Part shown: positions 4,855 through 63,593 of the stretch, in pieces
Layout: each line of letters starts with the position of its first letter
Position numbering within the stretch: position 1 is the first letter of the stretch
Assembly (NCBI GenBank): GCA_030427405.1
Contig: JAUHXK010000006.1
Span: 186,001 to 250,000 of the forward strand
Direction of reading: 5' to 3'
Length of the DNA stretch: 64,000 nucleotides
Source: Alphaproteobacteria bacterium
Lineage (GTDB): Bacteria; Pseudomonadota; Alphaproteobacteria; Rhodobacterales; Rhodobacteraceae
Position numbers and translations under genes: made by a program
Notes under the pieces: generated by a model
The model's database searches: none
Seen by the model: the letters and a program-made list of their open reading frames with translations, nothing else
What the model was told of the DNA's origin: nothing

Positions 4855-4858
4855 CTTC

Positions 4859-5872: not shown

Positions 5873-5890
5873 GCCACCCCCTCGTCTGCG

Positions 5891-5926
5891 TTAACACTTT
5901 GTTAATATCTGTTAAAACAACCTTAA
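5891..5926. promoter_or_regulatory. Two tandem CtrA-type boxes
   Basis: TTAA at 5891, 5902, 5912 and 5923 forms two perfect TTAA-N7-TTAA elements (5891-5905 and 5912-5926) separated by 6 bp. This is the consensus of the alphaproteobacterial cell-cycle regulator CtrA. They lie 18-54 bp upstream of the catalase-like start, in an otherwise GC-rich background. Binding is inferred, not shown. Confidence 0.55.
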
Positions 5927-6005
5927 GCACTTGGCCCCCAAAGGCAACAAAGACCTTACACAGGGGCGGGATGGTCGTGATCTTTCCCGGCAATTGCCGC
6001 CATGG

Positions 6006-7055
6006 TCACCATTTGGCCAACATGTCGATTGCGCGCGCCCATTCACCGCTGTCGCGGGTGGTCCTGAACGCCTCGTCCATCAGGTCGTATGAGGCCGGTT
6101 TATGCGTCGCAAGGCCGACGACCTTGGGCAGGGGCGGGTTCAGGCGCACCAGCCTGTCCTTGAGGACCAGCCGCGCCATCCAGTATTGGTTTTCCGCCGA
6201 CGTGGTCAGCAACAGCTCGATCAGCGCGCCCTTGGTCGCCGCCGACGTGATGCCAAACCATTTCAGCAACCCCCAATCATCGGGATCGCGGATCATTTCT
6301 TCGGAAATATCGGTCGGCTGCTGGCCGGTGCCGATGGAAATCGCTTCGACCTGGTCCAGGCCTGCCGCCCGCTTCGAGGCAATCGCCACGTTGATCCCGT
6401 TCAGGACGGGGTTGTTGGCAAAGGTACCGCCATCGGCGAAATAACCGTAATCGACACCGTCCGCGACAACGAGATGTGGCGGGAAATAGGTCGGCGCGGC
6501 AGAGCTTGCCATGGCCACGTCCAGCAATTTGACCGCGCTCATGTCCAGCCACGCCTCGTGGCCCAGATCCTGGTTGGTGATGGTAAAGGGGGCCCAGCCC
6601 TGCCCGTCGTTGCGATGCAGGCAGACAGTGTTCACCGCCAGAACCAGATCAGGTGACAAGGACCCGACCCGGCGGTCACCGACGATGGAATGGCCGATCT
6701 CGGCCAAACCGGTGGCATTATATTGCGACGCGGTAATGCCCGGACCTCCGCCCAGCTTGAATTTGCGCAGCACCCCGTCCAGAGCCCGGTCGACAATTGT
6801 TCGTTCGTTCTCGCGAAAGATCCGATCAGCATCATCGCGGTAATTGGCGACCAGACCGTCGATCAAGGCGCCCATATCCTTTCCCTGAGACCGCCCATCG
6901 GCCATGGCAACCGCAATCAGCCCACCGGTGGATGTGCCGGCGAAACCATCGGCCTTGTCCAGCATCCCGGTTTCCTGATGAAGGTGCTGCAGGATCAGAC
7001 ATGTGAGATATCCCCTGATCCCGCCCCCATCGCAGGACACCAGCCTGAAGCTCAT
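6006..7055 (-). CDS. Patatin-like phospholipase
   Basis: A 349-aa patatin-fold serine hydrolase. It has the oxyanion-hole motif CDGGGIRG near the N-terminus, the nucleophile elbow GTSTGG (GxSxG, Ser42 from this start) and the catalytic Asp in FADGGTFANNP (Asp208). Patatins cleave acyl groups from phospholipids or related lipids. The ATG at 7055 is preferred to the TTG at 7079 because the family motif starts right after it. No signal peptide, so it is probably cytosolic. It lies 133 bp upstream of the catalase-like gene on the same strand, so it may be co-transcribed or may be a separate unit if the CtrA boxes define a promoter. Confidence 0.88.
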   Translation of the reverse strand: MSFRLVSCDGGGIRGYLTCLILQHLHQETGMLDKADGFAGTSTGGLIAVAMADGRSQGKDMGALIDGLVANYRDDADRIFRENERTIVDRALDGVLRKFKLGGGPGITASQYNATGLAEIGHSIVGDRRVGSLSPDLVLAVNTVCLHRNDGQGWAPFTITNQDLGHEAWLDMSAVKLLDVAMASSAAPTYFPPHLVVADGVDYGYFADGGTFANNPVLNGINVAIASKRAAGLDQVEAISIGTGQQPTDISEEMIRDPDDWGLLKWFGITSAATKGALIELLLTTSAENQYWMARLVLKDRLVRLNPPLPKVVGLATHKPASYDLMDEAFRTTRDSGEWARAIDMLAKW

Positions 7056-47230: not shown

Positions 47231-47257
47231 GGACCCGCGGGTTACCCGTGCGGGTCC
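47231..47257. terminator. Bidirectional terminator-like hairpin
   Basis: GGACCCGC-N11-GCGGGTCC, a perfect 8-bp stem between the convergent gli and EEP-phosphatase genes; the latter's stop codon lies in the loop. No clear T-run. Confidence 0.5.
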
Positions 47258-48273
47258 CGTGACTGTGCGGGGCTGACCTCAAGCGTGCTCCATACACAAT
47301 CATGATCGGACAAGGGCGTACCGGCAGCCGAAACCGACGTCAGAATCCCCGACTCTACCGGCGCGAAACCCCGCCCAGCCAGCCAGTCCAGCTTCATCTG
47401 CCGATCCGGGTGCGGCGTGATCAGGCTGGGCCGCGTCGTGTCGCCTGCGGCGGTGAACGCCCAGGAATAACCCTGGTTTTCGGCCAGTCCAAACAGCGTT
47501 TCCCGCCGCCAGTCGAAATCGGGGGGAATGTGGTTTCCGGTATTCAAATCACCGCCGATCAGCGCCGGCAATCCGGGGGCGAACCGGTCGATGGCCTGCA
47601 GCAGGCGCGCGAACTGCTGGTGTCGATGCTCGGCACCCGCGTTGCTTTCCAGATGAGTAGACACCACACAGACCGAACCAGCGATGGTGGGAACGACCGC
47701 AGCAATGGCCATGCGGCCCCCGACCCTGGGTTGCTGGGGATCTGCAGCGCCGCCATCCGATGCAAACCAATGTCCATGGTCGTCCAGGCGGATCAGGGCC
47801 GTTCGCTGAAAAGGAACCGAAGACAGGATCGCGTTGCCGTGCCAACCCAGTGCATTGAAATCATCAACACAAAACGCCCGTTCGGTCGGGCCGCCCAGGT
47901 CAAGCTCGTGAAACTCGACCCCAAAGGCATAGACCATACCCAGGGCGTGGGCCATGTCTTGGGTTGTGTGGCGTTGCGCGGTGCGGGCCATGCCGTGATC
48001 AACCTCGGACAGCAGGACGACATCCGGGGCGATCTGACCCAGGTGATCCGCCGTGTCCTGTGGAAACAGGCAGCGTTCCACGTTCCAGGCCGCCACCGTG
48101 AACCGCGCGGGCAACTGAACCAAACCCGCATCGCCCCCCAATTGCAGCGCGTTCATGGCCGCGAGGTCCGACAACAGGTCGCGATGGGCTTGCGCGGTGC
48201 GCGGCGCGGACAGGATGTCGCGCCGTTGGGCTGGCGTTACAACCGCAAGCGCGTTCACCGTTTCTGTAATCAC
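47242..48273 (-). CDS. Endonuclease/exonuclease/phosphatase-family enzyme at end of ugp operon
   Basis: A 343-aa EEP-superfamily phosphoesterase: VAAWNVERC (Asn64), [10 protein letters not shown] (Glu90), [18 protein letters not shown] and the C-terminal PLSDHDCVW give all metal and catalytic motifs. Family members hydrolyse phosphodiesters in nucleic acids, inositol phosphates or sphingomyelin. It starts with GTG overlapping the ugpC stop, so it is translationally coupled to a glycerol-phosphate importer. It occupies the place of UgpQ, and I infer it hydrolyses imported glycerophosphodiesters; no experiment supports that here. Confidence 0.82.
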
Positions 48274-49316
48274 AGCGTTCTTCCCGTTTCCGTATCGAAC
48301 AGGCGCAGCGCTTCGGGTTTCAGCGTGATCCGGTTTTCACCCATCTGCGCGGCATGATCCTTGTTGATCAGAACGGTAAAGGGTTGACCGGCAAGCTGGC
48401 CGTGCAACAGCCGGTGCGCGCCCAGTTCTTCCAGGATATCGACCTGAAACGGAACCGACCCCTGACCATCCAGCTCGATATCTTCGGGTCGGATGCCCAA
48501 GGTCACCGGCCCGTTGGCCGATGTCGGTGCGGGCATGATCCCGTCATAGCCGTTGATCCGAACCTGACCCCGATCCACCTGCGCCGCGATCAGGTTCATC
48601 GGCGGCGCCCCCATGAACGAGGCCACAAAGGTCGAGGCCGGGTTGTGATAGATTTCCGACGGGGTCCCGATCTGTTCAATCCGCCCCGCGTTCAGAACGA
48701 TGATGCGATCGGCCATGGTCATCGCTTCGACCTGGTCGTGGGTGACATAGACCGCCGTCGTGCCCAGGCGGCGTTGCAGTGCCTTGATCTCGATCCGCAT
48801 CTGGTTTCGCAATTTGGCGTCCAGGTTCGACAGCGGTTCGTCAAACAGAAACAGTGCCGGGTCGCGGACCACTGCACGGCCCATGGCGACGCGCTGACGC
48901 TGGCCGCCGGACAGTTGCGCCGGCTTGCGGTCCAGGTAGTCCGTCAGGTTCAGCATCCTGGCGGCGTCTTCCACCTTGGCGGCGATCTCAGACGCCGGGG
49001 TGCCGCGGTTTTTCAGGCCATAGCCGATATTCCTGCGCACCGTCATATGCGGATACAAGGCATAGTTCTGGAACACCATCGCGATGTCCCGGTCCGCGGG
49101 GTCCACGTCATTGACCACCCGGTCGCCGATTTTGAGCGTGCCTTCGGTGATGTCCTCCAGCCCCGCGATCATCCGCAGCAAGGTGGATTTTCCGCAGCCC
49201 GACGGGCCGACCAGAACCACGAACTCGCCATCCCGAATGGTGAAGTCTGTTGCCTCAACGGCCTGAAAGCCGTTGGGATAAACCTTGCGGATGCCTTCCA
49301 AAGAAACCTGAGCCAT
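48270..49316 (-). CDS. ugpC: Glycerol-3-phosphate ABC transporter ATPase
   Basis: A 348-aa CUT1-family ATPase: Walker [10 protein letters not shown] (37-45), signature [19 protein letters not shown], Walker [13 protein letters not shown], then a TOBE/OB-type C-terminal region. MalK/UgpC-type enzymes energise uptake. Its place after ugpB, ugpA and ugpE marks it as UgpC. ATG start; overlaps the downstream EEP gene. Confidence 0.9.
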
Positions 49317-49327
49317 GCGCGTATTCC

Positions 49328-50221
49328 TTATTTGTCGGATTCTGTAAGGCCCTTGACGAACCAGTTCTGGAAAAAGATCACGATGGCCACGGGCGGGATC
49401 ATCGCAACGATGGCCAACGCCAGGGCCTGCCCATGTTCGGGGATCTGGCCGTCGGTATAGGACAGCACGATCTGCTTGATGCCCCGGACCAGCGTGAAAA
49501 AGCTTTCATCGGTGGTGATCAGTGTCGGCCACAGATACTGGTTCCAGCCAAAGACGAACATGATGATGAAAATCGCCGCGATCATCGTTCTGCTGAGCGG
49601 CACGAGGATGTCGATGAAGAATTTCCACGGCCCTGCCCCGTCGATCCGGGCGGCCTCGGCCAGTTCCTCGGGCACGGACATAAAGAACTGCCGAAAGAAG
49701 AACGTGCCGGTGGCGGACGCGATCAGCGGTACGATCAGGCCGGTATAGGTGTTGGTCAGCCCAAGTTTCTGGATGGCCTCGTAAGACGGCAGGATGCGCA
49801 CTTCAAGCGGCAGCAGCAGCGTGGTGAAGATCACCCAGAAGGCCAACGTGGCAAAGCGCAGGCGGAAATAGACAATCGCATAGGCGGCCATCATCGAGAT
49901 GACGATTTTTCCCACTGCAAAACCGATGCCCAGTATCAGTGAATTCATCAGCATCAGCGTGCCATCGACGGTCTGGGTAAAACCGCCCTTTTCGAACATG
50001 GCCGCGTGGAAATTCTTGCCCAGATCATCGCCCAGCGTCAGCTGCAGCCCTTCGCGGTGGATCGTCACCGCATCATGGCTGGCCGTTGTCAGCGCCAGAA
50101 GCGGCGGCAGAATCATCAGCAAGGACCCAAGGATCAGAACAAGATGATCGCCAATCGCATGCCAACGAATTTTGCGCGGGCGGTGCGCGACGGCGGGAGT
50201 TTCAAGCGTTGTATCAGCCAT
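49328..50221 (-). CDS. ugpE: Glycerol-3-phosphate ABC transporter permease
   Basis: A 297-aa MalG-type inner-membrane protein with six membrane segments; the EAA loop reads [26 protein letters not shown]. The sequence [32 protein letters not shown] fits UgpE. ATG start; 11 bp from ugpC and 11 bp from ugpA. Confidence 0.9.
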
Positions 50222-50232
50222 GACGCGCCTCC

Positions 50233-51114
50233 TCAGGTATAGTGGATCCGGCGTTCAACAAGCCGGAACTGAAAGACGGTCAGGATCAGGACCAGCACCA
50301 TCAGGACTACGGATTGCGCTGATGAACCGCCAAGGTCATTGCCGCGGAACCCATCCAGATAGACCTTGTAGACCAGCGTCATCGGGTTGTTGCCCGGCTC
50401 GCCTTTCATCAATGCATCGATGATGCCGAACGTGTCGAACAGGGCGTAGGTGATGTTGATGATCAGCAGGAAGAACGCAGTCGGCGCAAGCAAGGGAAAG
50501 GTCACTTGCCAAAACCGACCCGTGGCCGAGCGATTGTCGATCATGGCCGCTTCGCGCACGGAACGCGGAATGGATTGCAGGCCGGACAGGAAAAAGATGA
50601 AGTTCACCGGGATCTGTTTCCAGACCGAGACGATGATCATCGCCGTGGCGGTCGCATTATAGTCGACGCCCAGTTTGAAATCCCAACCGAACATCTGGAA
50701 AAACCGGGTCATCGGGCCGGTGCTTTGATCAAAGAACAAGATGCCCAGGAACCCGGCCACCGGGGGTGCAATCGCGTAAACCCACATCAGCAGCGTGCGA
50801 TAGGATTTGGCCCCACGGATGATCTTGTCGGCCTTCACCGCCAGCAACAAGGCGATGGCAAGCGAGAAAAAGGTCACGAGCACCGAGAAAACGATCGTGA
50901 ACCAGGCGACGCGCATATATTGCGCATTGCCCAACAGGGTCGTGTAATTGTCGCCGCCCACAAAGGTCGAACCGAACCCGAACGGGTCCTGCAAATAGAA
51001 TGACGATTGCAGCGCCCAGCTCGCGGGCCAATAGAAGAAAATGGCGATAATCATCAATTGCGGCAGCAGCAGCGCCACAGGAAGCCAGATATTGTCGAAG
51101 CCCGCGCGTTTCAT
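50233..51114 (-). CDS. ugpA: Glycerol-3-phosphate ABC transporter permease
   Basis: A 293-aa MalF-type permease with six membrane segments (VALLLPQLMIIAIFFYWPA first). The EAA loop reads SVREAAMIDNRSATGRFWQVTFPLLAP, with Asn-Arg where the common form has Gly-Ala. ATG at 51114 chosen; it leaves two hairpins between it and ugpB untranslated. Confidence 0.9.
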   Translation of the reverse strand: MKRAGFDNIWLPVALLLPQLMIIAIFFYWPASWALQSSFYLQDPFGFGSTFVGGDNYTTLLGNAQYMRVAWFTIVFSVLVTFFSLAIALLLAVKADKIIRGAKSYRTLLMWVYAIAPPVAGFLGILFFDQSTGPMTRFFQMFGWDFKLGVDYNATATAMIIVSVWKQIPVNFIFFLSGLQSIPRSVREAAMIDNRSATGRFWQVTFPLLAPTAFFLLIINITYALFDTFGIIDALMKGEPGNNPMTLVYKVYLDGFRGNDLGGSSAQSVVLMVLVLILTVFQFRLVERRIHYT

Positions 51115-51137
51115 GAGGTGTCCATTGCGAAAAGAGC

Positions 51138-51183
51138 GATGGCCGCGCCTTGACGACGCGACCATCCTGGGGGTGATCCCAGG
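51138..51183 (-). promoter_or_regulatory. Tandem hairpins between ugpB and ugpA
   Basis: First hairpin GATGGcCGCG (51138-51147) with CGCGaCCATC (51157-51166), nine pairs and one mismatch. Second hairpin CCTGGG (51166-51171) with CCCAGG (51178-51183), closing on the end of the ugpB gene. Same gene position as the hairpins in both TRAP operons. Confidence 0.5.
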
Positions 51184-51185
51184 GT

Positions 51186-52490
51186 TTAGCCCTGGGTCTT
51201 TGAGAAGCGGGCCAGCAGTTCGTTGGCTTCTGCTTCAATGGTCTCAAAGGCGGTTTCCACGTCGGTCTCACCGGTCAGGATACGACCATATTCGCGGTTC
51301 ATGATGTCGCGGATCTGGACGTAGAACCCCATGCGATAGCCCTTGGTGTTGTCTCCGGCCTTGGCTTGCAGCTGGTTCACACCAATTTCGGCGGCCGGAA
51401 AGCGGTCATAGTGGCCATCTGCTTTGGCGGCTTCATATGCGGCCTCGGTGATCGGCACATAACCGGTTTCCTGATGCCAGAAATACTGGGTTTCAGGCGC
51501 GGTCAGAAAGCGGAAGAATTCGGCGGTTGCCTTGTTCTCTTCGGCCGATTTACCGGACATGGCAAACAGTGCAGCACCACCGATGAAGGTCTGGGTGGGC
51601 TCCGCCGTCACAGCTTCCCAATAAGGCAGTTCCACCGCGCTGAATTCAAATCCCAGATCTTTCTGCAGCAGCCCGCCAAAGGAACCGGACGAGCCCAGCC
51701 ACATGGCAACCTTGCCTTCTTCGAAAGGCTTGGCATTGTCGCCCCAACCGGTGCCGTACCATTCGAACAGACCGTCATTTTTCCAATCCGACACGGCGGT
51801 GAAGTGCGCCTTGATCGCGTCGTTGTTCACGAGAATCTGAGTGTCGGTGCCGTCATAGCCATTGTTGTTGGTCGCAAACGGCAGGTTGTGGCGCGACATG
51901 AAGTTTTCAGTGAAGATCCACGGCAGGTGCGACTGGCTGAGCGCGATATAGCCCGCGTCCTTAAGCGCCGGAGCGGTGGTCGACTGGAACTCTTCCCAGG
52001 TTTTCGGGGGCGTAACACCTGCGGCTTCCAGCGCATCTACGTTGTAGTACATGATAGGTGTTGACGAGTTGAACGGCATGCCGATCATCTTACCGTCGCT
52101 ATCGGCGTAGAAGTAACGCACGCCGGCGATATAGTCATTGATGTCGAAATCAACGCCATTTTCGGCCAGCAGGTCCTGAACCGGGATGGTTGCGCCCTTG
52201 GCGCCGATCACGGTGGCGGCCCCGGCGTCAAACACCTGCATCACATTGGGTTGCTCACCCGCACGGAAGGCTGCGATACCGGCGGTCAGGGTCTCTTCGT
52301 AGCTGCCCTTGTAGACGGGGGTGATCTTGTATTCGTCTTGCGAGGCGTTGAAATCCTCGGCGATCTTGTTGACGGTCTCACCCAGTTGGCCGCCCATCGC
52401 GTGCCACCAGGTGATTTCGGTTTCGGCAAAAGCTGCGGTCGCGGTCAGGGCGAAAGCAGCAGCTGTTACGCTGAGCTTGTAGTTGGTCAT
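51186..52490 (-). CDS. ugpB: Glycerol-3-phosphate-binding protein
   Basis: A 434-aa periplasmic binding protein: signal peptide (SVTAAAFALTATAAFA-ETE), then ITWWHAMGGQLGETVNKIAEDFN and YKGSYEETLTAGIAAFRAGEQPNVMQVFDAGAAT, the UgpB ligand-binding signature; SSGSFGGLL and TGYVPIT follow. UgpB binds glycerol-3-phosphate and glycerophosphocholine-type diesters. ATG at 52490 with GGAGGAT upstream and a small hairpin (52505-52520) in the leader just before the ribosome site. Confidence 0.92.
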   Translation of the reverse strand: MTNYKLSVTAAAFALTATAAFAETEITWWHAMGGQLGETVNKIAEDFNASQDEYKITPVYKGSYEETLTAGIAAFRAGEQPNVMQVFDAGAATVIGAKGATIPVQDLLAENGVDFDINDYIAGVRYFYADSDGKMIGMPFNSSTPIMYYNVDALEAAGVTPPKTWEEFQSTTAPALKDAGYIALSQSHLPWIFTENFMSRHNLPFATNNNGYDGTDTQILVNNDAIKAHFTAVSDWKNDGLFEWYGTGWGDNAKPFEEGKVAMWLGSSGSFGGLLQKDLGFEFSAVELPYWEAVTAEPTQTFIGGAALFAMSGKSAEENKATAEFFRFLTAPETQYFWHQETGYVPITEAAYEAAKADGHYDRFPAAEIGVNQLQAKAGDNTKGYRMGFYVQIRDIMNREYGRILTGETDVETAFETIEAEANELLARFSKTQG

Positions 52491-52908
52491 TTCGATCCTC
52501 CGGTTCGGGAACGATCCCGAGTATTGGCAGGTATGCCGTGCCGAGGGGCGGCCCCTCATCGTTAAAAGTCAGACGCAAACGGGGGATAGCCCGAGCGCAT
52601 AGCACAGGGTGTGCACAGGTGCTCAGCTACGGGGATCATGTGACAGTTAAGCGAAACTTTTATTACATTATTGAGACCGTGTTACCCGGTTCGATGTTGG
52701 GACCCGGTGACTTCATTCCGCATGGTTTCAGGCACCCGTCTCATGGGCCGCACGACCCTGCCGGGTTACGCCGCACGCTGTGGCCGTCGCGGCCCGTGTG
52801 TCATGTTCCGCCGTGTCGCGCGGCAAATATTTGACAGCCGATGCAATGAAGGGGCCCATGCGGCCATTGTCCGTGGGTGCGGGCTGCGAAAGCAGCCCGC
52901 CCGGATGA
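52491..52908. other. 418-bp intergenic region upstream of ugpB
   Basis: Holds the ugpB promoter and leader (leftward) and the 3' end of the leftward aldo/keto reductase unit. Leader hairpin TCGGGA-acga-TCCCGA at 52505-52520. AT-rich block 52640-52680. A weak Pho-box-like CTGTCAC is noted at 52640-52646 on the minus strand. A strong hairpin lies at 52879-52900. No gene seen. Confidence 0.5.
52879..52900 (-). terminator. Hairpin 3' of the aldo/keto reductase gene
   Basis: GCGGGCTGC-gaaa-GCAGCCCGC, a perfect 9-bp stem with a GAAA tetraloop, 8 bp beyond the stop. No T-run, so termination is plausible but could also be transcript-end protection. Confidence 0.5.
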
Positions 52909-55077: not shown

Positions 55078-55548
55078 TCAAAAATCCCCCGGGGCGCATT
55101 GCAGGCAGACCAACCCTTGTGCGCGCCAGAAATCCACCACGGAACTGCGATCATCAAACACGATCCAGGGGTCGAACCCGTCGTTGCGCATCCGGTCCAG
55201 CAACAATTTCTTGACCTCAGGGTCGCTCAGACCGTCGGCGTCCGAGGGGCGCAGATAAATCCCCTCATATGGCAGATCGTTTTGATCCAGCCATGCCCTG
55301 GTGTAGTCCACCCATCCCTCGGGGCGCCCCGAGCACAGCACGACCGTTTCGCCGCCCGCCGCCAACTGCCGGTAGACACGCGCCACCGGTTCGATCAAAG
55401 GGGCCGAGGCCATGGCTTCGTGAAAATGCTGCCATTGCTTGTTCTGGCCATGGACGAGATGACCCAATCTGGCCGCATCGAATTCGGCAAGCGTTCCGTC
55501 GATATCAAAAATCACGCAGCGGCGGCTGCTAGGGGGAATGTCACGCAT
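55078..55548 (-). CDS. HAD phosphatase resembling the T4 polynucleotide-kinase 3'-phosphatase domain
   Basis: A 156-aa HAD enzyme: motif I FDIDGTLAEFD (nucleophile Asp15, acid/base Asp17), VVLCSGRPEGW, and the C-terminal motif FDDRSSVVDFWRAQG (Asp132, Asp133) ending PGDF. Motif order, the DDR-x-x-VV-x-x-W pattern and the closing GDF recall the phosphatase half of T4 Pnkp, which removes 3'-phosphates from nucleic acids; the kinase half is absent. ATG at 55548, overlapping the upstream gene by 8 bp. Last gene of a six-gene operon. Confidence 0.8.
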   Translation of the reverse strand: MRDIPPSSRRCVIFDIDGTLAEFDAARLGHLVHGQNKQWQHFHEAMASAPLIEPVARVYRQLAAGGETVVLCSGRPEGWVDYTRAWLDQNDLPYEGIYLRPSDADGLSDPEVKKLLLDRMRNDGFDPWIVFDDRSSVVDFWRAQGLVCLQCAPGDF

Positions 55549-56098
55549 CAATTTGCTCCTTGTGATGGGTTCCGGTCCAGCGAAACGCATGTGGAACCGC
55601 ATTTTCGGCGCGCGCGCCGACGCTTTTCTGTCCGGTCAACAGGCGGGTGGCCCGGATCACACCCGAGTGACATACGATCACCGCCGGGCGATCGGCAGCC
55701 AGCAGCAAGCAACCACATATCGCACGGTGAACCCGGCGGATCATGGCGGCCCAGTCTTCGCCTTGTTCGGGGTGGCTGTCCCGTGGGGGCAATCGGTCCA
55801 GCGGCAGCCCTTCGTAACACCCCCAGTTACGCTCAACGAGGTCGGGGTGCGGACTGATCGGCACATTCGGAAATCCGATCTGCGCGGTCTCGGTCGCGCG
55901 TCGCATCGGGCTGGCAAACAGGGCGACATCATCGGTCCAGGCATATCGGGAAAGCCCCGCGGCCTGCGCACGCCCCCTAACTGTCAGTTCGACATCCAGA
56001 CACCCGGCGATGATACCGTCGCGGTTGGCCGTTGTCTCGCCATGACGGATCAGAGTGAAACTGCGCGCAGGCAACGGCGGTAGATCTGACAGGGTCAC
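55541..56098 (-). CDS. Histidine phosphatase family protein
   Basis: A 185-aa phosphoglycerate-mutase-like phosphatase: LIRHGETTANRDGIIAGCLDVELTVRGRAQA with the catalytic His19 of RHG, FASPMRRATETAQI, the acid/base Glu in LVERNWGCYEG and a second His in VIVCHSGVIRA. It should dephosphorylate small metabolites. GTG start overlapping the MBL-gene stop (GTGA), and its end overlaps the HAD start. Confidence 0.85.
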   Translation of the reverse strand: MTLSDLPPLPARSFTLIRHGETTANRDGIIAGCLDVELTVRGRAQAAGLSRYAWTDDVALFASPMRRATETAQIGFPNVPISPHPDLVERNWGCYEGLPLDRLPPRDSHPEQGEDWAAMIRRVHRAICGCLLLAADRPAVIVCHSGVIRATRLLTGQKSVGARAENAVPHAFRWTGTHHKEQIDA

Positions 56099-57165
56099 AA
56101 CGCGATCCTTTCATGCAGGAAAACCTCGGTGTCAAAGCCTGCTTCCAGAAAATACTCCTCTGGCAGGGTGCAAAAGGCCGGCGCAAACCGGCGCGCGCCC
56201 AGACGGCGCAGCATGCGGATCTGATCCGACAGTGGCGGATGCACGTTCCAGCGCCGGAAATAGCCACCGTCGACCTTTTCGATGCCGCGGGCATGGGCCG
56301 TCATGTGGCCGGTGAAAACCACGTGCGCATCGCGGCCAAGACGTCCGCCTTCGCGCCAGGCCCGCACATAGCCCCAGGCCGCCCCGCCATCGGCGTTGGG
56401 GGTGTCGCAGACCAGAAACCGCGCCTCGTCAAGATCGCCTCGGCTGAGCAATGGCGCAACTTCCTGCGCGTCCGCACTGACACTGTTGGTTGCCAATGCA
56501 GCCCGCAGGGCCGTGCGACATTCGGGGTCAAGCATCACGCTGTCCGGTCCGTAGCCACGCAACAAGTGCAAAGCCAGCTCGCCAGCCCGCCCGGACGGGG
56601 GAACCGGAAACAGGACCTGGCCAGGCAAGGAGTCAAGAAGCGCATCCAGCGCCGTAAGTCGCATGGCCTGGGTCACGTCATCCAGATGATAGCTGCAATC
56701 GAGTATCGCCGTCGCTGCGGGCGGCGGCGGATCAAAGGCAAACCACTGGGATTCCTCGGACCAGTCACCGGAATAGAACAGCCCGTCGCCCAGACCGAAA
56801 TGCAGCCAGCACCCACCCAGCGCGTGGCCGTTGCGCCCGGTCGTCACCGGCACACCTCCGATCAGTGTGGTTCCCTGTTCCGGCAGGGGGCGCAGGTCGG
56901 CCGAGGGCGGAAGCGCGTTCGCCGTGCGCCGGGTGGCATGAATAGGAAGCCCGGCCTCGACCGCGTGGGCCGCACCGCCGATATGGTCGATGTGGTCATG
57001 GGTGATAAAGACAGCATCGACCCCGTCCAGCCAGGCGGGATCAAAATTCGCGTTGGCTTCGGGGCCAAAGCCGCAATCAAGCAGCCAACGATGGCCGCCG
57101 GTTTCCAGCAGCATACAGGCCGGACCTTTGTCGCCGATCCCGGACAGGACCGTTACATAATGCAT
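56095..57165 (-). CDS. Metallo-beta-lactamase-fold hydrolase, possible beta-CASP relative
   Basis: A 356-aa MBL-fold protein: the metal motif THDHIDHIGG (55-64, HxHxDH), YSGDWSEESQWF, ILDCSYHLDD and a C-terminal FTGHMTAHARG followed by WNVHPPLSDQIRMLRRLGARRFAPAFC. The last block resembles the beta-CASP B motif (serine/alanine-His then a helix and a strand) of RNA-processing nucleases, but the fit is partial and a small-molecule esterase remains possible. It lies 15 bp after the ABC ATPase gene and is coupled to two phosphatases. Confidence 0.72.
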   Translation of the reverse strand: MHYVTVLSGIGDKGPACMLLETGGHRWLLDCGFGPEANANFDPAWLDGVDAVFITHDHIDHIGGAAHAVEAGLPIHATRRTANALPPSADLRPLPEQGTTLIGGVPVTTGRNGHALGGCWLHFGLGDGLFYSGDWSEESQWFAFDPPPPAATAILDCSYHLDDVTQAMRLTALDALLDSLPGQVLFPVPPSGRAGELALHLLRGYGPDSVMLDPECRTALRAALATNSVSADAQEVAPLLSRGDLDEARFLVCDTPNADGGAAWGYVRAWREGGRLGRDAHVVFTGHMTAHARGIEKVDGGYFRRWNVHPPLSDQIRMLRRLGARRFAPAFCTLPEEYFLEAGFDTEVFLHERIAL

Positions 57166-57180
57166 GATTTCCTCGTGACT

Positions 57181-58224
57181 TCAGGTTTCGGCAAAAGCCC
57201 AGGGGGTCGACAGGGTCAGACCCAATTGCTCACCCGGCGCGTGCCGTGCGGGTGATCGCGCCATCAGCTCCGCACCGTCGGTCGTCCGCAATCCAAGGCG
57301 GTATTGGCCCCCCAGATAGGTGCAGCGTTCCACACGTGCCCGCAGCGCGCCCGCCTCGCCCAGCGTAATGTTTTCCGGCCGCAGACAGCTGAGCGTCGGG
57401 GCGGCGCAGTCGCTTTTGACGCGGATGCGCCGATCCAGCAAGGTGACCTCGGCGCCGTCCTCGGTGGGTTTCGGATCGCTGACGGGCACGACACTGCCTT
57501 CACCGATGAACCCCGCGACAAACCGGTTTTGCGGTCGGGCATAAAGCCGTTCGGGCGTGTCGAATTGCACGATGCGACCGGCCTCCATCACCGCGATGCG
57601 ATCCGCCATCGCCATGGCCTCGGCCTGATCATGGGTGACATAGACCATGGTGGCGCCGGTGCGGTGATGAAAATCCGAGAATACGGCCTGCATCGACGCA
57701 CGTAGGGCCACATCCAGATTTGCAAGTGGTTCGTCCAGCAGCACCGCCGTCGGATCCGTGACCAGACAACGGGCCAGAGCGACCCGCTGGCGTTGACCCC
57801 CGGACAGGTCCGAGGGCATCCGATCCGCATAAGGCCCCAGCGCGGTCGCCTCTAGCGCGGCATCGATCCGGCGCGAACGCTCAGCCCTGGGCACGCCGCG
57901 CACCTCGAGCGGATACCCTATGTTGCGCCGCACGTTCATATGCGGCCACAAGGCGTAGGACTGGAAGACGAACCCGATATTGCGCGCCTCGGGGGGCTGC
58001 ATGTGGCCGGTATCGGCATTGGCGACCTCTTGCGGGCCGATGTGGATTTGGCCGGTGCTGGGATGTTCGAACCCGGCCAGCAGGCGCAGAAGGGTGGATT
58101 TGCCACAGCCCGACGGACCAAGCAGCGCGACGAATTCGCCATCGGCAATCTCGGCGGTGATGTCTGCAAGCGCGGGCGTGCCATCAAAGCTTTTGCCGAC
58201 AGAATTAAGCGTCAGTTTTGCCAT
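57181..58224 (-). CDS. ABC transporter ATPase (PotA/FbpC type)
   Basis: A 347-aa importer ATPase: Walker [10 protein letters not shown] (36-44), FVFQSYALWPHMNVRRNIGYPLEV, signature [19 protein letters not shown], Walker B VLLDEPLANLD and a C-terminal TOBE domain (SCLRPENITL). It overlaps the permease gene by 13 bp. ATG start with the family N-terminus. Confidence 0.88.
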   Translation of the reverse strand: MAKLTLNSVGKSFDGTPALADITAEIADGEFVALLGPSGCGKSTLLRLLAGFEHPSTGQIHIGPQEVANADTGHMQPPEARNIGFVFQSYALWPHMNVRRNIGYPLEVRGVPRAERSRRIDAALEATALGPYADRMPSDLSGGQRQRVALARCLVTDPTAVLLDEPLANLDVALRASMQAVFSDFHHRTGATMVYVTHDQAEAMAMADRIAVMEAGRIVQFDTPERLYARPQNRFVAGFIGEGSVVPVSDPKPTEDGAEVTLLDRRIRVKSDCAAPTLSCLRPENITLGEAGALRARVERCTYLGGQYRLGLRTTDGAELMARSPARHAPGEQLGLTLSTPWAFAET

Positions 58225-59918
58225 GGAACTACTCCTTTGGGCAGGCGGCGAGAGGTCAGCTGGATCACACCCATCAAGGCGATCACCACCATGACAACGG
58301 CCATTGCGACGGCCGAGGCCATCACCGTTTCGCCGCTGTCGTCCAGATTGAAGATCACGACGCCCAGCGTTTCAGTCCCCGAAGACCACAGCAGCGCCGA
58401 GACGGTCAGTTCGTTGAACGCCGTCAGAAACACCAGAATGGCCCCGGCGGCGGCAGATGGCGCGGTCAACGGCAGAATGATGTCCCTCAGACGGCGTGGG
58501 AGTGAGGCGCCGACCGATTGCGCCGCCTCGTTCATTGCTGGATCAAGCTGTTTCAGGCTGGATTGAACAGGCCGGAACATCACGGCGAAAAAGCGGGCCA
58601 GATAGGCCAGAAAGATGATCCAGATGGTGCCGTAGAGTGTGAAATCCGTGAACGGCAGGTTGATCAGCAGCAGGATCATGGCGATGGCCAGAACCACACC
58701 GGGCAGGGCATAAGGCAGGTCCAGAAGGTTATCGAACAGGCGGCCCAGCCGGGTTGGATGCCGCTCCATCAGCCACGCCAGAGGCAGGCACAGGGCCATC
58801 AGCAGAACCGCCGCGCCGATCGACAAGCTGAACGAGTTGACAAAGGCGCGTGTGGTGGCGGGCTGGCGGAACAGCGCCTCGTACCAGCCCATCAGCGACA
58901 GCGTGTCCCAGCGCAGGGGCACGCCATAAGCGGGCACCAGCGACGTTGCCAGCAAGCCCAGCAGCGGCAGCACCAGAATGGCAAGAATAACAGACCACAG
59001 CGCGATCTCGATTGGCAGGCGGGCGCGGCCCAACGGGATTGACAATGCGCGTGATGCGCTGCCGACCAGATGCACCTTTTGGCGGCGCTGGATCAGCCGC
59101 TGCAGAAGGATGCCCGCGACGGCCACAACGCCGATCAGGATCGCCAATACCGCGACCTCGGCCAGAACGGTTGTGCCCAGTCCCGCAAGGCGCTGGTAAA
59201 TCAACGTGGGCAAAGTGGAATAACCCGCCGGTATCCCCAGCATGGCAGGAATGCCAAAGTTTCCAAGCGCCGTGACAAAGGTGATGGCGATACCGGCGGC
59301 AAGGCTGGGCAGGCTCAGGGGCAACACGATCTGCCACCAGACGCGCAACCCGTGCGCGCCGGAAATCCGCGCCGCCTCAACCACGTCCTGCGGGACCGAA
59401 CGCAGACCTGCGCGCAGGGTCAGAAAAATGATCGAACTGTGTTGAATGCCCAACAACAGGATGATGCCGCCGGGCGAATACAGCGGCTGGGGCGCGCCAA
59501 GCGGTGGTGCCAGACCCAGTGTTTTCAGCAAAACCGAGGAAGGCCCCATCAGCTGTGTCCATGACAGGGCCGTAATCTGTGGGGGGATCATCATCGGGAT
59601 CATCAGGCAGAAGACCAGCGCCGCCTTGCGCCGGAGATCGGTCAGTGCGACCAGAAACGCGAAAATGCTGCCGATGATCACCGAGATCAGCGTGCCGAAC
59701 CCTGCCGTTACCAGAGAATGACGTAGCGCGGACTGGGTCGCGTTACGCGTCAGAACGTCGTGCAGAAAGACAAGGTTCAGCCCGCCCCCGACAGTAATGC
59801 CTTCGACGAACAATCGCGCTACGGGCGCGAGGGTCAGGAAAATCGCGACCAGCAGCACAAAGGACAGCAGCCGGCCCTCGGACCGGCTGCGTCCCGCATG
59901 TAGCGGCAGGTATGTCAT
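58212..59918 (-). CDS. ABC transporter double permease (FbpB/PhnU type)
   Basis: A 568-aa fused permease with about 12 membrane segments and two EAA loops: VVEAARISGAHGLRVWWQIVLPL in the first half and MNEAAQSVGASLPRRLRDIILPL in the second. Such fused permeases serve iron(III), thiamine, phosphonate or organophosphate importers. The start overlaps the binding-protein stop by 4 bp. Confidence 0.87.
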   Translation of the reverse strand: MTYLPLHAGRSRSEGRLLSFVLLVAIFLTLAPVARLFVEGITVGGGLNLVFLHDVLTRNATQSALRHSLVTAGFGTLISVIIGSIFAFLVALTDLRRKAALVFCLMIPMMIPPQITALSWTQLMGPSSVLLKTLGLAPPLGAPQPLYSPGGIILLLGIQHSSIIFLTLRAGLRSVPQDVVEAARISGAHGLRVWWQIVLPLSLPSLAAGIAITFVTALGNFGIPAMLGIPAGYSTLPTLIYQRLAGLGTTVLAEVAVLAILIGVVAVAGILLQRLIQRRQKVHLVGSASRALSIPLGRARLPIEIALWSVILAILVLPLLGLLATSLVPAYGVPLRWDTLSLMGWYEALFRQPATTRAFVNSFSLSIGAAVLLMALCLPLAWLMERHPTRLGRLFDNLLDLPYALPGVVLAIAMILLLINLPFTDFTLYGTIWIIFLAYLARFFAVMFRPVQSSLKQLDPAMNEAAQSVGASLPRRLRDIILPLTAPSAAAGAILVFLTAFNELTVSALLWSSGTETLGVVIFNLDDSGETVMASAVAMAVVMVVIALMGVIQLTSRRLPKGVVPWQN

Positions 59919-60883
59919 TCAGCACCGAAAAGGTCAGCGAATTTCGCCTTGTTGGTTTCGGCATCCGACAGAGCCTGGGCCGGATCGAACGCCATCAGCT
60001 TGACCTCGTCACGGGCCGGAAAGCCTTCGGGCATGCCCATTCCGTTACGCGCGGGGATATAGCCCATCTCAAGCACCAGATCCTGACCTGGCTGCGACAA
60101 TACGAAATCAACGAATTTCTGCGCGGGTTCAACGTTTTTGGCGCTGTCCAAAATGGCGACCGGCTCGGTCACGTAAGAAACGCCTTCTTTCGGGAACACG
60201 AACTCGACCGGCGAGCCGTCGGCCTTGTTGCGGATGGCCAGAAAATCAACAACGACGCCATAAGGTTTTTCACCCGACGCGACGGCCTTGAACGTACCCC
60301 CGTTGCCGCCCTTGGCGCGCGCCTCGTTCGAAGCCAGTTGGCCGTAATAGTCCCAGCCCAGGTCCGCATCGCCGGTCAGGGTCGCCAGATGGATCAGCGC
60401 CGCACCGGAATACAGCGGCGAGGGCATGGCAATCTGACCTTTCAATGCCGGGTCCGCCAGGTCAGACCAGCTTTCGGGCTGCGCCGCCGCACCGGTGTTG
60501 TAGACGATGCCGCTGGTGATCAGTTTGGTCGAATGGTAATAACCGTCAGCGCTGTAAAGCGCGGGGTCATAAGCCTCAGCCTCGGGCGATTTATAGGCTT
60601 TCAGAAGCCCCTCTTGTGCCATGCCTTCCAAAGTGACGGTATCGGCGATCAGCAATACGTCGGGCTGCGGATTGCCGGCTTCGATCTCGGCGCGCAAACG
60701 GGCCATCAGCTTGGTCGTGCCGTCGCGGACCCAGTCGACCTCGACGCCGGGATGGGCAGCGGTGAATGCATCGACGGTCTTTTGCGCGTCGGCATTGGGC
60801 TGCGAGGTGTAAAGGGTCAGGGTTTCCGCGTAGGACGCAGTTGCGGCAACTACAACGGCGGCGGCAGACAGAAGGGTTTTCAT
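59915..60883 (-). CDS. ABC transporter solute-binding protein (FbpA-like fold)
   Basis: A 322-aa class-II periplasmic protein: signal peptide (LLSAAAVVVAATASYA-ETL), TLYTSQPNADAQKTVDAF, GNPQPDVLLIADTVTLEGM, SPLYSGAALIHLATL and the usual C-terminal YIPARNGM. It lacks the tyrosine pair of ferric-binding FbpA in a recognisable form, so iron is not favoured; the operon's phosphatases suggest a phosphorylated solute. ATG at 60883 with GGAGAG upstream. Confidence 0.87.
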   Translation of the reverse strand: MKTLLSAAAVVVAATASYAETLTLYTSQPNADAQKTVDAFTAAHPGVEVDWVRDGTTKLMARLRAEIEAGNPQPDVLLIADTVTLEGMAQEGLLKAYKSPEAEAYDPALYSADGYYHSTKLITSGIVYNTGAAAQPESWSDLADPALKGQIAMPSPLYSGAALIHLATLTGDADLGWDYYGQLASNEARAKGGNGGTFKAVASGEKPYGVVVDFLAIRNKADGSPVEFVFPKEGVSYVTEPVAILDSAKNVEPAQKFVDFVLSQPGQDLVLEMGYIPARNGMGMPEGFPARDEVKLMAFDPAQALSDAETNKAKFADLFGAE

Positions 60884-60901
60884 CCGAGCTCTCCAGATTG
60901 G

Positions 60902-60915
60902 CTTTCGTACGAAAG
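60902..60915. promoter_or_regulatory. DeoR operator upstream of the ABC operon (site 1)
   Basis: CTTTCGTACGAAAG, a perfect 14-bp palindrome, 18 bp before the binding-protein start. TTTCG/CGAAA half-sites are typical of GlpR/DeoR-family regulators. Twelve of 14 positions match site 2. Confidence 0.65.
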
Positions 60916-60963
60916 GTAAGTGGCGCACTTATGGGATGGGTTTGAAACTGTTTTGTGACGTTT

Positions 60964-60989
60964 TTGGCAAAGTTTTATTACCTTGCCAA
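60964..60989. repeat. Inverted repeat in divergent control region
   Basis: TTGGCAA (60964-60970), 12-bp AT-rich spacer, TTGCCAA (60983-60989). Perfect 7-bp arms in the middle of the ABC-operon/DeoR region; a second regulator site or part of the promoter. Confidence 0.4.
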
Positions 60990-61032
60990 CTTCCACCCCC
61001 GGTTGTTATTTCCGAATGCGAACGACACTTCC

Positions 61033-61046
61033 CTTTCGAAGGAAAG
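61033..61046. promoter_or_regulatory. DeoR operator upstream of its own gene (site 2)
   Basis: CTTTCGAAGGAAAG, 12/14 match to site 1, ending 3 bp before the regulator start codon and overlapping its ribosome site (GAAGGA). Suggests autoregulation. Confidence 0.55.
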
Positions 61047-61049
61047 CGT

Positions 61050-61829
61050 ATGAGGCGGCACGAGATGACCCGACGCAGAGACCAGATCATCGGTCTTTTG
61101 TGTGACCACCCTGAGTTGTCCGCGGCAGAGCTGGCAGAGCGGCTGCAGGTCTCGGTTCAGACCATTCGTACCGATTTGCGTGATTTGGACGAGGCGTTGC
61201 TGGTGCAGCGCCGAAACGGTCTGGTCCGTCTGCGGCAGCAATCCGAGAATGTCGGCTACACCCCTCGGGTCAGTGTTGCCCGGAATGAAAAGCGTCGTAT
61301 TGCCCTTGCCGTCAAGGAATTGGTCCCGGATGGCGCGCGCATTGCCTTGGGCACCGGAACCACTGTTGAAAACTGCGCCCAATTTCTGGCCGTTCGAAAA
61401 AGGTTGTTTGTTGCGACAAACAACCTGCACGCAGTCGTTGCGTTGCAACAGGCGCCAGAGGCTCAGGTAAGTCTGGCGGGGGGCGTCGTGCGGCTGCGTG
61501 ACCTGGACCTGATCGGCGCTGCCAGCACTGGGTTCTTCGCAGGCTACCGGGTGGAACAGGCGATTTTCAGCTGCGGCGGTATTTCGGACAGCGGTGAGGT
61601 CTTGGACTACAACCTCGAAGAAGTAGCGGCCAGAACGGCAATCGCCGATTGCGCAAACCAAAAAGTCCTTGTCGTCGACAGCACAAAATTCGGACGTGAT
61701 CTGCCATGTCGAAACCGCGTTATTTGGGATTATGACGTCGTCGTAACCGGACAGGACCTGTCCGAGCCGCTTCGGGCCGCGTGCGAAGATGCAGGGTGCA
61801 AGGTTATCAAAGTGGCCGTCGACGGATGA
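61050..61829 (+). CDS. DeoR/GlpR-family transcriptional regulator
   Basis: A 259-aa regulator: N-terminal HTH LSAAELAERLQVSVQTIRTDLRDL, linker RLRQQSENVGYTPRVSVARNEKRRIA, then the DeoR C-terminal sugar-phosphate-sensing domain (ALGTGTTVENCAQFL, TNNLHAVVAL, DLIGAASTGFFAGYRVEQAIFSCGGIS, VVDSTKFGRD). The family senses phosphorylated metabolites. It is divergent from the ABC/phosphatase operon and has matching operators in both promoters. ATG at 61050 with GAAGGA upstream. Confidence 0.88.
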   Translation: MRRHEMTRRRDQIIGLLCDHPELSAAELAERLQVSVQTIRTDLRDLDEALLVQRRNGLVRLRQQSENVGYTPRVSVARNEKRRIALAVKELVPDGARIALGTGTTVENCAQFLAVRKRLFVATNNLHAVVALQQAPEAQVSLAGGVVRLRDLDLIGAASTGFFAGYRVEQAIFSCGGISDSGEVLDYNLEEVAARTAIADCANQKVLVVDSTKFGRDLPCRNRVIWDYDVVVTGQDLSEPLRAACEDAGCKVIKVAVDG

Positions 61830-62912: not shown

Positions 62913-63593
62913 ATGATCTCCTTTAAAGGCGCACAATATCCCAAGGATGTGATCCTCTTTGCTGTGTTCTTCTACCTTCGATACGGCGTGTCATACCGGG
63001 ATCTGGAAGAAATCATGTACGAGCGAGGCGTTGCGGTAGATCACACAACGCTGAACCGTTGGGTGACTAAATACGCTAGTGCAACTGCCGATGTTGCGCG
63101 CAGGCGAAAGGGACCGTGCGACCGTTCCTGGAGAATGGACGAGACTTACATCAAGGTGAAAGGAGCGTGGGTCTATCTCTATCGAGCCGTCGACAAACAC
63201 GGCAAGACGCTTGATTTCATGCTTTCCCCGCGACGAAACAAACCGGCTGCGACAAAGTTCATTGCCATGATGCTGGAGGTCAACGGGCTTCCGAGGAAGA
63301 TTGTCATCGACAAAAGCGGAGCTAACACGGCTGGTATCAAAGCCATAAACAAGATGCTAAAAGGCTTTGGTTGCCCGATCCCAATCGAGATGGTCAGGCG
63401 GAAGTATCTGAATAACATCGTGGAACAGGACCATCGCTTCATCAAGAGACGCACTCGACCGACGTTAGGGTTCAAAGCTTTTGATTCAGCGGCGGCTGCA
63501 CTGGACGGAGTCGAAGTCGCGCACTTGATCCGCAAAGATCAGCTCACGCCCGGAATCTGTCCGTTTCGTCAGTTTGCGGAACTGGCGGAATGA
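62913..63593 (+). CDS. IS6-family transposase
   Basis: A 226-aa DDE transposase with the IS6 layout: N-terminal HTH (LFAVFFYLRYGVSYRDLEEIMYERGVAVDHTTLNRWV), catalytic Asp in WRMDETYIKVKG, Asp in IVIDKSGANT and Glu in NIVEQDHRFIKRR (DDE). Length and motif order match full-length IS26-type transposases, so the element looks functional. ATG start inside the inverted repeats. Confidence 0.93.
   Translation: MISFKGAQYPKDVILFAVFFYLRYGVSYRDLEEIMYERGVAVDHTTLNRWVTKYASATADVARRRKGPCDRSWRMDETYIKVKGAWVYLYRAVDKHGKTLDFMLSPRRNKPAATKFIAMMLEVNGLPRKIVIDKSGANTAGIKAINKMLKGFGCPIPIEMVRRKYLNNIVEQDHRFIKRRTRPTLGFKAFDSAAAALDGVEVAHLIRKDQLTPGICPFRQFAELAE

Follow-up and report, generated by a model that had tools for sequence, protein, structure and literature searches.

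A cassette of six leftward genes and a divergent DeoR gene, found in the 64,000-nucleotide stretch of DNA analysed here (the window), is probably (at roughly 75%) a phosphorus-scavenging operon. It would be activated by PhoB and repressed by the DeoR regulator, and its products would import an organophosphate, hydrolyse it with an MBL-fold hydrolase (MBL) and then dephosphorylate the product. The cassette is widely conserved yet apparently undescribed and, judging from sequence, seems to be switched on under phosphate shortage. This reading draws on the conserved gene set, a predicted Pho box, the linkage of a candidate operator to the DeoR gene, family memberships and the replacement of phosphatases, from which we infer the reaction order and the substrate. 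The original prediction had proposed import of a nucleotide, oligonucleotide or other organophosphate followed by dephosphorylation. The organophosphate role has gained support from the Pho boxes and from phosphatase swapping, whereas a nucleotide or oligonucleotide substrate is kept as a favoured guess only.

All seven open reading frames were confirmed as real at the positions listed in Table 1. The leftward neighbours overlap by 62, 4, 13 and 4 bp as listed, with a single 15-bp gap between the MBL and ATPase genes. For the HAD phosphatase (HAD), the solute-binding protein (SBP) and DeoR, the listed starts give the longest possible reading frames; the likely starts in the table were chosen from relatives and a signal-peptide-like start. 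Counted from the likely SBP and DeoR starts, the divergent promoter region is 167 bp long.

Table 1. Features of the cassette and of the neighbouring ugp-type operon (window coordinates)
Feature	Position	Strand	Basis or remark
HAD phosphatase, Pnkp phosphatase family	55078..55602	-	PF25109 HAD_PNKP; likely start ~55548
Histidine phosphatase, branch 1 (RHG)	55541..56098	-	His_Phos_1, 98.6 bits
MBL hydrolase, predicted compact CPSF/beta-CASP relative	56095..57165	-	profile match, motifs
ABC ATPase with TOBE domain	57181..58224	-	domain matches
Fused double permease	58212..59918	-	BPD_transp_1, two stretches
ABC solute-binding protein (SBP), type II	59915..60928	-	Pfam SBP_bac_8/SBP_bac_6; likely start ~60883
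DeoR-family regulator, divergent	60936..61829	+	DeoRC + HTH_DeoR; likely start ~61050
Predicted Pho box CGTCACAAAACAGTTTCA	60943..60960	-	begins 78 nt ahead of likely SBP start
Candidate DeoR operator CTTTCGTACGAAAG	60902..60915	none	perfect palindrome
Second operator-like copy CTTTCGAAGGAAAG	61033..61046	none	one mismatch; directly ahead of likely DeoR start
ugpBAEC-type importer + Exo_endo_phos protein, separate operon	47242..52559	-	UgpC, PF03372
Pho-box-like site upstream of ugpB	52639..52656	-	14.8 bits; window rank 2

The cassette is conserved more than chance would allow. Among 291 other genomes drawn from the same order, 24 carry the MBL at 57-78% identity, and in all 24 it is surrounded by the cassette (HAD not found in three, SBP not found in one). 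Permease, ATPase and MBL occur together in 80 of 80 named loci. The binding protein and the histidine phosphatase are each found in 79 of these, while 71 have DeoR and 65 the HAD. The gene set is self-contained, as had been proposed. The HAD, which did not turn up in any of the 12 group-B loci (L056-L067), is accessory and therefore cannot alone define the substrate. Many bacteria of the Roseobacter group carry the cassette, and it also occurs on plasmids, as in Phaeobacter inhibens 2.10 (operon PGA2_RS18430-18460, plasmid pPGA2_239); a RepA search bearing on the plasmid nature of contig C16 gave no match on that contig. A literature search, with most subscription journals outside its coverage, met no description of a pathway with this gene set, in agreement with the original prediction, and no experimental evidence on the cassette.

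The new element is a predicted Pho box in the cassette promoters. A motif found de novo is present in 71/71 non-redundant promoters (interquartile range of its start, -97 to -82). Of 26 control loci, 25 also have it as their top site, ahead of a PstS-like gene. These control genes exceed the model cut-off in just one of 25 genomes, and the site in that sole PstS control (L152) is weak, at 10.5 bits. The Pho box of the window, degenerate in its second half, scores 18.4 bits, the best of 128,000 positions (2 x 64 kb); sites of 18.6 and 18.8 bits lie elsewhere among 30 loci of the same genome. For promoters outside motif building, 12 of 16 loci (two places examined per operon) and 15 of 21 loci of a second set had a site ranking 1-2 in the whole locus, with several rank-1 sites scoring only 10-14 bits. 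The rank was 3 or worse in L057, L067, L070 and L071 of the former set and in L214, L216, L220, L246, L247 and L248 of the latter. Genome-wide, the pattern gave 213 matches on both strands vs 151 for the reversed control and is therefore too loose to list the regulon. By its predicted Pho box the cassette promoter has the mark of the Pho regulon, and we infer that PhoB would activate the operon. Na/Pi transporters and PhnCE-type genes lie near some distant copies, in keeping with a role in phosphorus supply. The accessible portions of the S. meliloti Pho-regulon literature yielded nothing relevant on afu genes.

A second promoter element, TTTCGNNCGAAA, occurs in 70 of 77 upstream regions. The palindrome CTTTCGNNCGAAAG accompanies DeoR, being present in 69 of the 70 regions with a DeoR gene vs one of the seven without (raw counts, uncorrected for kinship). 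This candidate operator is linked to DeoR, and DeoR probably represses the operon.

The MBL is, to judge from its profile and motifs, a compact CPSF/beta-CASP relative. The original suggestion of a partial beta-CASP likeness was borne out by a CPSF73 profile match (E 2.5e-28) that extends into the beta-CASP region (profile positions 11-306 of 363), and the best-matching solved relatives are nucleases or RNA-processing proteins. Neither the MBL nor the set of 47 MBLs matched the Pfam beta-CASP domain, and a profile comparison with the RNase J of the same genome aligned only positions 9-231. The beta-CASP motifs were defined from the accessible parts of PMC7458816 and PMC3095777. Motifs 1-4 (D30; H56xH58xD60H61; H114; D134), which include the zinc motifs H56, H58, D60, H61, H114 and D134, are invariant in 47 aligned group-A sequences. 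Motif A, assigned by eye, is D156 followed by C/S-S-Y; D156, S158 and Y159 are invariant in the 47 sequences, and D156 and Y159 in 26. H309, the proposed motif B, is invariant in aligned relatives and lies 22 residues ahead of the proposed motif-C position F331, a spacing matching H396-H418 and H319-V341 in the accessible part of PMC7458816. Motifs B and C rest on this spacing because HMMER aligns the MBL with CPSF73 only up to a point short of motif B; H309 would fall elsewhere according to a second, weak segment of that alignment (i-E 5.8). The residue at the proposed motif-C position is His in CPSF73 and Val in Artemis/SNM1, whereas F331 is invariant in the 47 sequences, so that the motif-C histidine has apparently been replaced by Phe; the MBLs of L070 and L071 have His there. 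The zinc motifs and the motif-A Asp are shared with CPSF73, TTHA0252 and aCPSF1, and so, to judge from spacing, may be the proposed motif-B His. Unlike these, the cassette MBL has about 356 residues and is encoded in an import operon.

As had been suspected from its motifs, the HAD belongs to the Pnkp-phosphatase family (PF25109 HAD_PNKP, 87.3 bits vs a cut-off of 27.6), and its strong PDB matches are three distinct Pnkp sequences and no others. The four motifs pointed out originally (FDIDGT, DDRSSVVDFW and the terminal GDF of the HAD, and HxHxDH of the MBL, which reads HDHIDH) are all present, with their key residues kept in relatives. D33, D35, R93, D127, D150 and D151 are invariant in 19 and 29 sequences and align with D165, D167, R213, D254, D277 and D278 of T4 Pnkp, which we take to be important catalytic acids and phosphate binders. 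T4 R176, presumably a further residue of the phosphatase set, has no invariant counterpart. The HAD shares DxDGT, SGR, DDR and the C-terminal GDF with T4 and bacterial Pnkp 3'-phosphatases; unlike Pnkp, it has no kinase domain, carries another insert after motif I (LGHLVHG..K.W) and usually adjoins a second phosphatase. It is Pnkp-type by family, and 3'-phosphatase activity on nucleic acid is only predicted.

The nearest solved relatives of the histidine phosphatase are CobC/alpha-ribazole phosphatases, and it scored 74.7 bits vs a cut-off of 162.9 with the corresponding model TIGR03162. In distant relatives of the cassette, the importer and MBL are kept and the phosphatase varies among four unrelated kinds (histidine, Pnkp-HAD, dual-specificity and SurE), requiring at least 17 label changes on the tree. 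Two of these, HAD_PNKP and SurE (annotated as 5'/3'-nucleotidase), bear nucleotide or polynucleotide phosphatase names. No phosphatase was seen next to the MBL in L129, L221, L244 and L214.

Under the proposed pathway, PhoB would bind the Pho box when phosphate is short and could activate transcription, and a DeoR-type repressor at CTTTCGNNCGAAAG would keep the operon silent until a (phospho)metabolite derived from the substrate is present. The SBP and ABC transporter would bring in the organophosphate, which the beta-CASP-like MBL would hydrolyse in the cytoplasm, most likely at a phosphodiester, to give a phosphomonoester. The histidine phosphatase, with the Pnkp-type HAD where present, would then free inorganic phosphate. 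It is quite possible that the substrate is of nucleotide type (a short oligonucleotide, a cyclic nucleotide or some other nucleotide diester), and this serves as our tentative first guess. It is rather unlikely that, under phosphate starvation, short nucleic-acid fragments (oligonucleotides or cyclic/diester nucleotides) are imported intact by a dedicated ABC transporter, digested in the cytoplasm by a miniature beta-CASP nuclease and finished by a lineage-recruited phosphatase.

The original prediction had named two findings that would count against it, a non-phosphorylated ligand such as iron and enzyme families with an established unrelated substrate; no such family was matched above its cut-off. 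One RefSeq annotation gives the permease as 'iron ABC transporter permease', adjoining generic hydrolases, and iron-binding proteins are among the PDB relatives of the SBP. However, iron(III) import is very improbable: by a hand-mapped alignment, the SBP has F229-L230 where FbpA-type iron binders presumably carry a tyrosine pair, the operon enzymes belong to phosphoesterase families, and the promoter has a Pho box. Equally implausible is an anti-phage or nucleotide-signal-degrading system, to which a weak match of the MBL to anti-Pycsar Apyc1 might point (E 0.006; E <=0.01 in 10 of 47 MBLs): the 16.6 bits are far below the cut-off of 50, the three enzymes matched no PADLOC family at E 0.01, and an importer and Pho box would be unexpected. 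A phosphonate (2-aminoethylphosphonate-like) importer with unrelated hydrolases is improbable as well. The nearest NCBIfam models of the SBP and permease are the putative 2-AEP models PhnS2 and PhnU2, PhnT2 is second nearest to the ATPase after UgpC (both below cut-off), and PhnCE-type genes lie near L057, L067 and L070 (by eye) and L217 (annotated). Yet scores with TIGR03261/03262/03265 are far under the equivalog cut-offs (150.7/392.75, the SBP against PhnS2; 167.7/593.25; 301.1/457.7). Like AepXVW/PhnS2-T2-U2, the cassette has an SBP_bac_6 (PF13343) protein; unlike the AepX systems, which in the accessible part of PMC8316502 typically accompany phnWX or phnWAY, it has no phosphonate-cleaving gene (phnW, phnX, phnA, phnY).

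Possible, if doubtful, is Pho-controlled scavenging of a substrate not derived from nucleic acid, such as a glycerophosphodiester, a cyclic polyol phosphate or another sugar-type phosphodiester. The regulators of cassette variants belong to DeoR, LacI and SorC-type sugar-binding families, and the best PDB matches of the SBP, 4r72 (AfuA) and 6wce (P5PA), bind sugar-phosphate and pyridoxal-phosphate. According to the accessible parts of PMC4546632 and PMC8427247, the SBP shares its superfamily with AfuABC and P5PAB and partly keeps their phosphate-pocket positions (G70-T71, S174-G175); unlike those systems as described there, the cassette has catabolic enzymes within its operon. However, AfuA Thr150 is replaced by A176, and the sugar-contacting His205 and Asp206 (PMC4546632, same portion) by F229 and L230, as mapped by hand. 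A ugpBAEC-type importer 2.5 kb from the cassette also favours such a substrate; its UgpC is above cut-off (523.1 bits vs 432), and UgpB (377/411), UgpA (292.5/335) and UgpE (296.4/297) are below. This operon is separate and perhaps in the same regulon. The nuclease-like relatives of the MBL and the nucleotide-related names of two phosphatase kinds argue against a substrate of this type.

UgpBAEC-UgpQ, the glycerol-3-phosphate/glycerophosphodiester system, is a Pho-controlled ABC importer with an intracellular phosphodiesterase. The cassette is predicted to pair organophosphate import and phosphodiester cleavage in the same manner. It differs in its binding protein, fused permease, DeoR regulator and added phosphatases, and its beta-CASP-like MBL stands where the GDPD enzyme would.

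In seas poor in phosphate, dissolved organic phosphorus, of which nucleic acids are a part, is an important source of phosphorus. If the phosphorus-scavenging reading is right, the cassette would be a further, unannotated organophosphate uptake route beside PhoX, UgpBAEC and the phosphonate systems. It would also put a beta-CASP-type enzyme to metabolic use and offer a clear example from nature of unrelated phosphatases substituting for each other in one pathway.

The seven open reading frames of the cassette were confirmed in the window at the positions originally given. Pfam searches assigned the solute-binding protein (SBP) to SBP_bac_8, the permease to BPD_transp_1 (matched twice), the ATPase to ABC_tran and TOBE_2, the MBL-fold hydrolase (MBL) to Lactamase_B_2, the histidine phosphatase (HIS) to His_Phos_1, and the regulator to DeoRC/HTH_DeoR. 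The original prediction had also supposed that the HAD protein (HAD) resembles the Pnkp phosphatase and that MBL resembles beta-CASP proteins. Both suppositions were borne out, the former by a HAD_PNKP match of 87.3 bits (cut-off 27.6) and the latter by profile matches to CPSF-type proteins in the PDB. In the RefSeq annotation of P. inhibens 2.10, the cassette genes are named generically only, the permease as an "iron transporter".

A search of 291 other genomes drawn from the order found MBL at 57–78% identity in 24 and, over most of its length, at 31–41% in 17 more. The loci of all 24 close and 16 of the 17 distant genomes were fetched (handles beginning with L denote loci from other genomes). 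The close loci have the order DeoR / SBP-permease-ATPase-MBL-HIS(-HAD); HAD was not found in three of these 24 and SBP in one. Twelve of the 16 distant loci (L056–L067) have the order ATPase-MBL-HIS-SBP-permease, without HAD. From a scan of named genomes, the best 80 loci were retained, some of which end at contig ends; they belong to Rhodobacterales, Thalassospira, Kiloniella, Devosia, Roseibium, Cohaesibacter and Maritalea. Permease, ATPase and MBL are present in all 80, SBP and HIS in 79 each, DeoR in 71 and HAD in 65, split into two pieces in L116. Plasmids also carry the cassette, with 71 records matching MBL, 27 of them from Phaeobacter.

In the 16 genomes listed for the same genus, the matches to MBL were all short (E 5e-7 or weaker) and fell in long frames; the RNase J of the window genome itself gives the same type of match. 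Because MBL was not found in these 16, a recent gain of the cassette by this genome, or its loss elsewhere, is possible. A DDE_Tnp_IS240 transposase lies 1 kb past the DeoR gene (window 62913-63593). A record titled Nocardioides marinus (L081) holds a Rhodobacterales-type copy and is probably mislabelled or contaminated. In Halomonas sp. PA16-9 (L220:4327-5042), the DeoR match falls into two adjoining pieces, as does that of the permease, which suggests frameshifts or sequencing errors. Thioclava indica (L151:3376-6031) has two extra ORFs immediately ahead of the cassette; on inspection they look like a further SBP and permease of the cassette type, and they have tblastn matches in 78-79 of the loci.

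Filtering reduced 77 upstream regions to 71 non-redundant ones, of which the window contributed one. A de novo search of these 71, with the palindrome masked, found the motif TGTCACAAAACTGTTACg in all of them, starting at -97 to -82 relative to the SBP start (interquartile range). The motif repeats TGTYAY directly with an 11-bp period, which is the form of the Pho box. The control comprised 26 loci from 25 of the genomes, selected by a PstS-type model; their genes are mostly PstS-like below the model cut-off, only L152 scoring above it. In 25 of the 26, no site in the whole locus scored higher than the best one upstream of the PstS-like gene, the exception being L176, a longer paralogue; in 24 that best site reached at least 16.8 bits, and the L152 site is weak (10.5 bits). 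When the operon's own intergenic region in the window was shuffled 2000 times, the 18.4 bits of its site was never reached. A loose pattern search of this genome gave 30 loci that include two more sites, at 18.6 and 18.8 bits, so the window site alone would not convince; it is the conservation of the site that convinces.

Two sets of promoters took no part in building the matrix. The first set was L056–L071 (16 loci), where two places were examined, one ahead of the first gene and one ahead of SBP. In 12 of these loci, one of the two places has a site that ranks 1-2 within the locus; the ranks were 3-4 in L057 and L067, and 6-7 in L070 and L071, which are SurE loci. Such a site was also found in 15 of 21 further loci, and not in L214, L216, L220, L246, L247 or L248. 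Scores are only 10-14 bits for several of the rank-1 sites. L059 is a near-copy of L060, as L066 is of L219, and L212 and L239–L241 are close kin of matrix-building loci. Lying 2.5 kb from the cassette, a ugpBAEC-type importer and an Exo_endo_phos protein (window 47242-52656) likely form a second Pho-controlled operon. In L115, positions 3059-6023 directly ahead of the cassette encode a permease, an ATPase and what looks on inspection like a relative of this Exo_endo_phos protein.

The palindrome TTTCGNNCGAAA occurs in 70 of the 77 upstream regions, compared with 0.01 expected from shuffles. Of the 70 regions that have a DeoR gene, 69 contain it, versus one of the seven that have none, a test into which kinship enters because the loci are related; the one palindrome-bearing region without DeoR, L116, is close to a contig end. 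This co-occurrence ties the palindrome to DeoR, which is predicted to bind there and repress.

Candidate regulatory sites in the window
Feature	Position	Score (bits)	Rank in window
Operon Pho-box site	60943-60960	18.4	1 of 2 x 64 kb
Pho-box-like site before ugpB	52639-52656	14.8	2
TTTCGNNCGAAA, perfect copy	60902-60915		
TTTCGNNCGAAA, one mismatch	61033-61046		

The MBL profile matched aCPSF, CPSF73, Ysh1 and TTHA0252 in the PDB (E 2.5e-31 to 3.3e-24), the CPSF73 alignment extending as far as position 306 of 363. MBL carries the family's zinc motifs (H56, H58, D60, H61, H114, D134), which are invariant across 47 aligned sequences, and its motif A is D156. H309 is also invariant and lies 22 residues ahead of F331, the spacing given for H396-H418 of CPSF73 and H319-V341 of Artemis in PMC7458816. 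From this spacing, the motif-C histidine appears to be replaced by Phe in MBL; motifs B and C were placed by spacing rather than from a computed alignment, and the placement is not supported by a second, weak HMMER stretch (i-E 5.8). The motif-C histidine has been tied to RNA specificity (PMC3095777). The apparent Phe would parallel the Val that SNM1 enzymes have in place of this histidine; His is found in L070 and L071 of the SurE group. An MBL relative at L069:9544-10557, without the full HxHxDH, is perhaps degenerate; no cassette transporter genes adjoin it, and a LacI gene is next door.

The strong PDB matches of the HAD profile were three Pnkp sequences only (E 4.7e-17 to 3.8e-15; next 4.4e-4). 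HAD retains counterparts of D165, D167, R213, D254, D277 and D278, which are functionally important in T4 Pnkp, and differs from that enzyme in the insert after motif I. In Paracoccus sp. M683 (L116:6031-6363), the HAD gene appears broken, with two tblastn pieces and a 110-aa ORF. HIS is closest to CobC-type phosphatases, with a score under the equivalog cut-off.

Among the distant relatives, importer and MBL are constant and the last gene varies. HIS and HAD occur together in most of the window group, Thalassospira and L248; HIS alone in L056–L067 and Enterobacter L213; and HAD, with HIS not found, in Halomonas L220 and also in L246 and L247. A dual-specificity-type phosphatase accompanies a LacI regulator in L068, L218, L238, L242 and L243 (labelled from Pfam matches under cut-off in L068 and by annotation in L218), and SurE a SorC-type regulator in L070, L071, L215–L217 and L245. 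No phosphatase was seen at the L129, L221, L244 and L214 loci. In a quick tree built from 62 MBL rows, at least 17 changes of phosphatase label are needed, a large part being HAD gains and losses, while SurE and HAD-only each take one side of a branch. We infer that one chemical step, phosphate removal from the MBL product, is filled by whichever phosphatase is available. Na/Pi cotransporter genes lie near the SurE variant in L216:10972-12636 and L217:14079-19068, the latter locus additionally holding phnE, phnE, phnC and phnD. Opposite the MBL-SurE operon, L071:11448-16322 encodes a further SBP-permease-ATPase importer, accompanied by a histidine phosphatase of its own.

The residues of SBP were mapped by hand from the alignment with PDB relatives, using AfuA and P5PA residues from PMC4546632 and PMC8427247. 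By this mapping, the AfuA phosphate-pocket residues Gly36-Ser37 and Ser148-Gly149 are matched by G70-T71 and S174-G175, and P5PA has Thr at position 37, as does SBP at T71. However, AfuA Thr150 becomes A176, and its sugar residues His205 and Asp206 become F229 and L230. The predicted pocket fits a phosphorylated ligand other than hexose phosphate and, set against the ligands of iron-binding proteins, does not fit iron.

We favor a nucleotide-type substrate, since the solved relatives that match MBL best are nucleases or proteins of RNA processing, and since both HAD_PNKP and SurE are families of phosphatases for nucleotides or polynucleotides; a sugar-type diester would be a close rival. In the proposed mechanism, PhoB would activate the operon, and DeoR, whose family has sugar-phosphate-like ligands, would repress it until a product of that kind builds up. 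SBP, permease and ATPase would import the substrate, MBL would hydrolyse it, and the phosphatase(s) would then free Pi.

No description of this gene set was found in the literature searched, a scope outside which most subscription journals fall. The cassette has a principle in common with the Ugp system, namely a Pho-controlled ABC importer together with an intracellular phosphodiesterase.
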